In this document: positions 29,229-34,670 of the stretch, piece by piece
How positions within the stretch are numbered: the stretch's first letter is position 1
Layout of the letters: every line of letters begins with the position of its first letter
IMG/VR virus record: IMGVR_UViG_3300009149_000094
Coordinates: 1 to 41,012 of that record
Source: a virus
DNA length: 41,012 nucleotides
Reading direction: 5' to 3' (one strand)
The notes under the pieces: generated by a model
Seen by the model: only the letters and a program-made list of their open reading frames with translations
Told to the model about the DNA's origin: nothing
The model's database searches: none
Made by a program: the position numbers and the translations under genes

Positions 29229-29295
29229 TGCTGTCTCCTTGTTTTACTACCCAATAGGGCATAGATTATTAAACTACCTTTAACGGCATATCTCT

Positions 29296-29303
29296 ATTAT
29301 ACT
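29296..29303 (-). promoter_or_regulatory. AGTATAAT motif, possible -10 box
   Basis: Minus-strand AGTATAAT that begins inside the TAG stop of the gene at 29302 and lies 68 bases before the ssDNA-binding protein ATG. No -35 at usual spacing. Confidence 0.35.
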
Positions 29304-33898: not shown

Positions 33899-33962
33899 AA
33901 ACCTCCAAAGAAATGTTCCACGTATCTGATATTATACAAATACGTGGAACATGTGGAGGTTT
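33899..33962 (-). promoter_or_regulatory. Hairpin covering the DNA polymerase ribosome-binding site
   Basis: Outer 9-bp stem (33899-33907 with 33954-33962) and inner perfect 12-bp stem (33913-33924 with 33941-33952), separated by a 5/1-base internal loop, with a 16-base terminal loop. The polymerase Shine-Dalgarno GGAGGT (complement of 33901-33906) lies wholly in the outer stem, 7 bases before the ATG. The terminal loop contains a TATAAT box. It may act as a translational operator, a DNA operator or both. Confidence 0.6.
33931..33938 (-). promoter_or_regulatory. TGTATAAT box inside the hairpin loop
   Basis: Minus-strand TGTATAAT in the loop of the hairpin at 33899-33962, 38 bases before the polymerase ATG. 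RNA starting from it would keep only the 3' arm. No -35 match. Confidence 0.35.
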
Positions 33963-33979: not shown

Positions 33980-34315
33980 CTAAAACGTAAATACAAGATC
34001 CAGTGATGCTGTACCAGCGATAGTTTTGTTTAACTCAACAGCTACTTCATAACTATATATACTCTCGCTAGCGAGTGAAGAGATAATACCTGCCCTGTAA
34101 GATTCCCAGTAGGCACCTTCTAGCTCAAGATTGGCATTGATAGCATTGTGTGCAACGTTCACCGTAAAAGATTTCTTACCTGCAGCAGCTGCTGCAGCAA
34201 GTTCACCTGATACGAGTGTGTATGTTGATGTTGGTGTTGACTGTATCAACGAGAGACCAAGATCATATACAGCTATCATCTCTGTTTGTAAGTTGTAATC
34301 GGTTTTTAAACTCAT
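33980..34315 (-). CDS. Hypothetical small beta-rich protein
   Basis: 111 residues (MSLKTDYNLQTEMIAVYDLG...). An Ala-rich patch (VSGELAAAAAAGKKSFTV) is followed by a helix/strand region (VAHNAINANLELEGAYWESY) and a beta end (SLDLVFTF). No signal peptide; the Ala run is in the middle, not at the N-terminus, so it is unlikely to be a membrane protein. It ends 86 bases before the polymerase start, with the regulatory hairpin in the gap. Its style resembles small phage virion proteins, which is odd among replication genes; function unknown. Confidence 0.5.
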   Translation of the reverse strand: MSLKTDYNLQTEMIAVYDLGLSLIQSTPTSTYTLVSGELAAAAAAGKKSFTVNVAHNAINANLELEGAYWESYRAGIISSLASESIYSYEVAVELNKTIAGTASLDLVFTF

Positions 34316-34620: not shown

Positions 34621-34670
34621 ATTATACCTCCAAAGTATGTAATTATATTATCCTTATACTCTGAAATATT

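Follow-up and report, generated by a model that had tools for sequence, protein, structure and literature searches.

The 1344-residue DNA polymerase gene of the viral record IMGVR_UViG_3300009149_000094 (positions 1 to 41,012; this stretch of 41,012 nt is termed the window) is preceded by a hairpin at 33962-33899 of the minus strand, which contains the ribosome-binding site of the gene in its stem and a promoter-like box in its loop. This arrangement raises the question of whether polymerase synthesis depends on where the RNA begins, as was proposed in a sequence-only reading of this DNA, in which the hairpin is a promoter-choice switch. All of the hairpin elements described in that reading are present on the minus strand, in the 86 nt that separate the stop codon of a 111-aa gene (33980) from the polymerase ATG (33893). 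Their coordinates are summarized in Table 1. The polymerase is a fusion of an N-terminal RNase_T exonuclease, a PHP domain and a PolIII-alpha domain, and is of the PolIII-alpha type instead of family B, to which T4 gene 43 belongs. A search for a family match of the 111-aa protein gave none.

Table 1. Features of the polymerase leader and its neighbourhood in the window.
Feature	Position	Strand	Basis or remark
Upstream 111-aa gene	33980..34315	-	neighbour conserved among relatives; possible source of read-through RNA
Outer 5' arm AAACCTCCA, anti-Shine-Dalgarno	33954..33962	-	sequence, fold; outer-helix shuffle test p = 0.015-0.033
Inner 5' arm ATGTTCCACGTATTTG	33937..33952	-	sequence and fold
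TTTGTATAAT, probable promoter -10 region, TATAAT in hairpin loop	33931..33940	-	intergenic GTATAAT enrichment
Predicted RNA start (+/- about 3 nt)	33924	-	inferred from TATAAT spacing
Inner 3' arm CAGATACGTGGAACAT	33913..33928	-	sequence and fold
U-rich tail TTCTTT of inner terminator-like hairpin	33907..33912	-	terminator scan
Outer 3' arm TGGAGGTTT	33899..33907	-	sequence, fold
Shine-Dalgarno GGAGGT, 7 nt 5' of ATG	33901..33906	-	sequence; predicted accessibility
Polymerase gene, 1344 aa	29859..33893	-	domains: RNase_T exonuclease, PHP, PolIII alpha, finger, HHH

The outer arms form 9 perfect pairs, so that the 5' arm is the exact anti-sequence of the arm that carries the full GGAGGT, as had been noted. 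The inner repeat, described before as 12 bp, contains 13 perfect pairs (ATGTTCCACGTAT with ATACGTGGAACAT), and folding lengthens this stem to 16 pairs, including one G-U pair. The TATAAT is located in the loop as described, but the loop is reduced from 16 bases to 8 nt (TATAATAT) upon folding. The two stems are separated by the expected internal loop, with a single nucleotide on the 5' side and TTCTT (5 nt, 33908-33912) on the 3' side. The hairpin is far more stable than expected by chance: its fold z is -6.75, and no shuffle out of 200 reaches its stability. For the leader as a whole, the folding energy is -38.8 kcal/mol, as compared with a mean of -14.9 (sd 2.9) and a best value of -26.9 for 3000 shuffles. 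An Rfam search of the window gives nothing above the curated gathering threshold, and identity with a microRNA precursor is rejected, because the sub-threshold matches are chance matches to the long stem. Neither an exact search of IMG/VR with the inner arms and the segment from the Shine-Dalgarno (SD) site to the start codon nor a distant DNA search of phage genomes gives a match.

Approximately 25 pairs interrupted by an internal loop resemble the known phage RNase III sites, for which those of T7 serve as comparison. The hairpin might accordingly be a long duplex in read-through RNA that is cut by RNase III, either activating or inactivating the downstream message. This explanation is the least probable of those considered, because the hairpins of relatives are often too short (9-13 pairs) and the box in the loop is left unexplained.

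The loop box belongs to a motif that is strongly concentrated between genes. The coding (minus) strand of the window has 20 GTATAAT sites, of which 15 fall within the 1740 intergenic bases that constitute 4% of the window, while none of the five sites on the opposite strand is intergenic. The larger intergenic gaps of the window contain 10 sites, as compared with 0.5 expected from shuffles. Some sites lie immediately 5' of an ATG, and these may be due in part to the spacing of the ribosome-binding site. GTATAAT is found 5' of replication genes (polymerase, SSB) and of the portal gene alike, and thus has the appearance of a general -10 promoter motif. In a profile of 103 distinct intergenic GTATAAT sites from the window and its relatives, TGG is favoured before TATAAT and a clear -35 region is lacking. 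The box in the polymerase leader has no clear -35 region either, and its TATAAT is preceded by TTG, not by TGN. From its sequence and position, TTTGTATAAT is regarded as a putative promoter, which would start RNA near 33924. The possibility that GTATAAT boxes generally favour hairpin loops is rejected, because 8 of 103 intergenic and 8 of 81 coding sites lie in stems at p <= 0.05, so that intergenic sites show no excess. The association of GTATAAT with hairpins is limited to terminator-like hairpins before the polymerase gene. In 51 of 184 distinct sites in the window and its relatives, GTATAAT is followed by an ATG after exactly 6 nt, a spacing far more frequent than any other, suggesting that many messages are leaderless. 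A number of these ATGs do not serve as start codons but mark the 5' end of the SSB leader hairpin described below.

The inner inverted repeat around the -10 box could alternatively be a DNA operator that binds a dimeric repressor or activator. The long perfect palindrome is indeed centred on the box, and GTATAAT is also flanked by inverted repeats, such as TTATCCACC / GGTGGATAG, before another gene in three relatives, L039 (14856), L043 (14953) and L035 (10605). These repeats are imperfect in L035, and their half-sites resemble DnaA boxes. A DNA operator is nevertheless very improbable for the polymerase leader, because the second tier of the structure (the outer arms with their 1/5 offset) would make no sense, and because the arm sequences are absent from the other promoters of the window and from relatives.

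Polymerases with 46-60% identity, together with the preceding gene of 110 aa, are encoded by many IMG/VR contigs. A scan of bacterial genomes gives one near relative only (L116), a phage-like contig binned in a Flavobacteriaceae MAG. The closest neighbours of the window in the polymerase tree are L009 and L014, followed by clade B (L004, L007, L015, L017, L079, L084 and L116) and L028, and next by L053, L011 and L030. The N-terminal exonuclease domain is absent in one polymerase clade (L011, L030, L035, L039, L040, L042-L044 and others). The polymerase match exceeds the protein by 0.6-1.4 kb in L004-L007, L083, L087, L088 and L116; the extra length lies within one 1681-aa frame in L004 and is spread over several frames in L007, and likely represents inteins or introns.

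A generic terminator scan of the minus strand picks out the inner stem followed by the tail TTCTTTGG. The 5 nt on the 3' side of the internal loop therefore correspond to the U-rich tail of a terminator-like inner hairpin, a feature that the sequence-only reading overlooked. Read-through transcription may therefore stop before the SD site is made, although termination may be weak because the U-tract is short and interrupted. In nearly all relatives, a terminator and a GTATAAT-like box are located between the two genes, and in the more distant ones an ordinary intrinsic terminator is followed by TTTGTATAAT and then by the polymerase gene. This arrangement, as well as the terminator-like score of the inner stem, is consistent with plain insulation, in which the inner hairpin is the terminator of the upstream gene, the polymerase promoter lies within it, and pairing of the SD site is a by-product. 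We consider this explanation unlikely, because pairing of the full SD site of the window by the 9-bp outer stem is better than in shuffles (p = 0.015-0.033), outer helices over the ribosome-binding site recur with individual support in L011, L030, L053 and L091, and the U-tract of the window is poor.

The recurrence concerns the layout and not the sequence. In L011, L014, L030, L053, L028 and L091, an inner hairpin is likewise combined with an outer helix that covers the ribosome-binding site, but the sequences are unrelated. A significant outer helix is detected in 8 of 33 polymerase leaders and in 5 of 98 leaders of other genes (Fisher p = 0.004), while a rank test gives p = 0.19. The SD site is predicted to be less accessible in front of polymerase genes (median 0.36) than in front of other genes (median 0.51; p = 0.0014). 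An earlier test of SD pairing gave a weak difference (p = 0.06), for which wrongly assigned start codons are partly responsible; the accessibility and outer-helix tests are the better ones. A terminator-like hairpin encloses GTATAAT in 5 of 108 distinct cases (the window, L091, L096, L097 and L028; the L097 leader is the same as the L053 leader). All of these are among the 36 hairpins in polymerase leaders and none among the 72 elsewhere (p = 0.003). These p-values serve as guides only, because the leaders are related by descent and the counts are not independent, and a Fisher value obtained from hand-picked leaders is optimistic. The closest sister lineages differ from the window, in that the loop of L014 has no clear box and the hairpin of L009 is only weak.

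The SD site of the window is predicted to be closed in RNA from upstream and substantially opened in RNA that starts in the loop. In upstream-started RNA, the predicted free fraction is 0.00, with a pairing probability near 1 and an opening cost of 10.9 kcal/mol, in agreement with the earlier claim that the site is paired in such RNA. In loop-started RNA, the predicted opening cost is decreased to 1.4 kcal/mol and the free fraction is about 0.44-0.53, with values of 0.24-0.48 for seven possible starts and 0.53 with a different flank. The site is thus predicted to be largely freed, to about one half. In L053 and L028, a start in the loop barely raises the predicted accessibility. Within the window, the leader of a 97-aa gene (34620-34327) at 34621-34670 of the minus strand also forms a fold, a weak one of -8.7 kcal/mol, in which GGAGG is paired and a TATAAT lies between the arms.

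It is fairly probable, as a model, that the hairpin is a composite cis-element (a 'latch') that ties polymerase synthesis to its own promoter. Computation provides the sequence, its fold, the enrichment of the motif, the predicted accessibility and the recurring layout, and from these results we infer an active loop promoter, read-through, termination, repression and an insulating purpose. RNA from the upstream operon would form the inner stem, followed by the U-rich tail, and could terminate there. RNA that reads past this point would fold the outer stem, by which the SD site would be locked and translation prevented. RNA from the TTTGTATAAT box would begin in the 3' half of the hairpin, such that neither the terminator nor the SD lock can form, and would be translated. 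Polymerase dosage would thereby be insulated from upstream transcription. The poor U-tract, the box with TTG before TATAAT and no clear -35 region, the deviating leaders of L014 and L009, and the small predicted gain in SD accessibility in L053 and L028 speak against this model. The proposal of a promoter-choice switch is partly supported, by the predicted closing and freeing of the SD site, by the intergenic enrichment of the loop motif and by the recurrence of the layout before the polymerase genes of relatives, but the element is better described as insulation than as a switch in time. GTATAAT precedes genes of many kinds, and nothing points to a special class of late promoter. If this model is correct, one 64-nt element would make polymerase output independent of upstream transcription by acting on both transcription and translation, and would represent a compact natural design of a promoter insulated from read-through.

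Similar elements are known from T4. In the long upstream transcripts of T4 gene e (lysozyme), soc, 49 and I-TevI, the ribosome-binding site is paired, and for e and I-TevI a promoter within or just after the 5' part gives a short RNA that lacks the 5' arm and has a free ribosome-binding site (PMC3014915; PMC2988022). The window hairpin resembles the e and I-TevI leaders in that the ribosome-binding site is predicted to lie in a stable helix of upstream-started RNA, and in that the putative promoter TTTGTATAAT is positioned between the arms, so that its RNA would omit the 5' arm and bypass the helix. It differs from the four T4 leaders in that theirs belong to late genes or endonucleases and use a promoter of the late class, whereas the window element precedes a replicative polymerase, its GTATAAT box is of a type that also precedes many other genes, including replication and portal genes, and its inner stem is also terminator-like. 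The window element would thus unite the mechanism of the e and I-TevI leaders with a promoter-terminator element. Elements of the latter type, termed PeSLs, are reportedly dense in shuffled regions and are said to mediate gene shuffling, according to work of Arbiol in 2010 and Comeau in 2014. As cited in PMC4503421, PeSLs are composite promoter-terminator motifs of T4-like phages that form one small intergenic cassette. Relative to this description, the window element is similar in that a promoter and a terminator stem-loop are joined in one intergenic cassette, at the sequence level, and dissimilar in that it is present in one copy before a core gene, contains an added SD lock and has its box in the loop. 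Scanning of up to 16 kb per relative gives five terminators with a box in the loop, one per locus and all before the polymerase gene, and not many copies in shuffled regions. The combination of a terminator, a loop promoter and an SD lock before a replicative polymerase, with recurrence of the layout only, was not found in the open-licence literature searched.

Clade B, L096 and L024 have a different hairpin over the SD site, of the form UCUUAAYCCC-stem-loop-stem-YCUAAGGAG. It is represented by model R1 and occurs in the polymerase leaders of L004, L007, L015, L016, L017, L024, L079, L096 and L116. In the R1 alignment, 98.9% of the cells pair and 4 of the 10 pairs contain double compensatory changes. 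None of 500 shuffles reaches its covariation score, and slid structures collapse. Matches to the R1 covariance model are restricted to polymerase leaders (42 loci), with a single match per record in the four records that contain the hairpin. The outer-helix shuffle test is not significant for these sister-clade leaders, because the helix is short; their support comes from covariation instead. The visible promoter boxes are mostly located upstream of the R1 hairpin. All RNA would therefore carry this hairpin, suggesting that its control is based on opening or binding instead of promoter choice. Judged from the sequences, translational control of the PolIII-type polymerase is likely in this phage family.

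A conserved leader structure is also present before the SSB-like gene (29228-28221; phrog_1192) of the same phages. Two tandem hairpins, AUGCC-loop-GGUAGU, are located at 29229-29301 of the window (minus strand), directly after a GTATAAT box and just 5' of the SD site, and are also found in L004, L007, L011, L014, L016, L018, L030, L051, L053 and L116. In this alignment, 96% of the cells pair, 4 pairs contain double changes and none of 500 shuffles reaches the covariation score. By analogy, SSB could control its own synthesis through these hairpins, as in T4 gene 32, the SSB gene of T4, which also has a leader structure.

The R1 and SSB leaders suggest another explanation for the window hairpin, namely an autogenous operator, in which the polymerase or another phage protein, when present in excess, binds the leader and stabilizes the closed SD site, with the box being incidental or secondary. 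The precedent is gene 43 of T4 and RB69, in which a leader hairpin lies near the ribosome-binding site of the polymerase and, in T4, the bound protein blocks this site (PMC3014915). The window is similar in that the hairpin lies near the ribosome-binding site of a replicative phage DNA polymerase, and different in that the polymerase is of the PolIII-alpha type and not of family B. This explanation accounts for an SD-pairing hairpin that covaries, occurs in polymerase leaders only and mostly follows its promoters, as well as for a structured leader at the SSB gene. It is rather unlikely for the window hairpin, however, because this hairpin shares no common sequence with that of the sister clade, because a hairpin of -38.8 kcal/mol should be shut without any protein, and because of the different polymerase family.

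A wider form of the proposed model is put forward tentatively, as a possibility. In this form, a three-in-one element of terminator, loop promoter and SD lock would guard the polymerase across a group of uncultivated phages, its layout being kept while its sequence turns over, and would be replaced in one clade by the covarying hairpin, which would act as translational operator for the PolIII-type polymerase. If these proposals hold, control of the replicative polymerase and of SSB by leader RNA, known mainly from T4, would extend to phages whose polymerase is unrelated and of the bacterial type.
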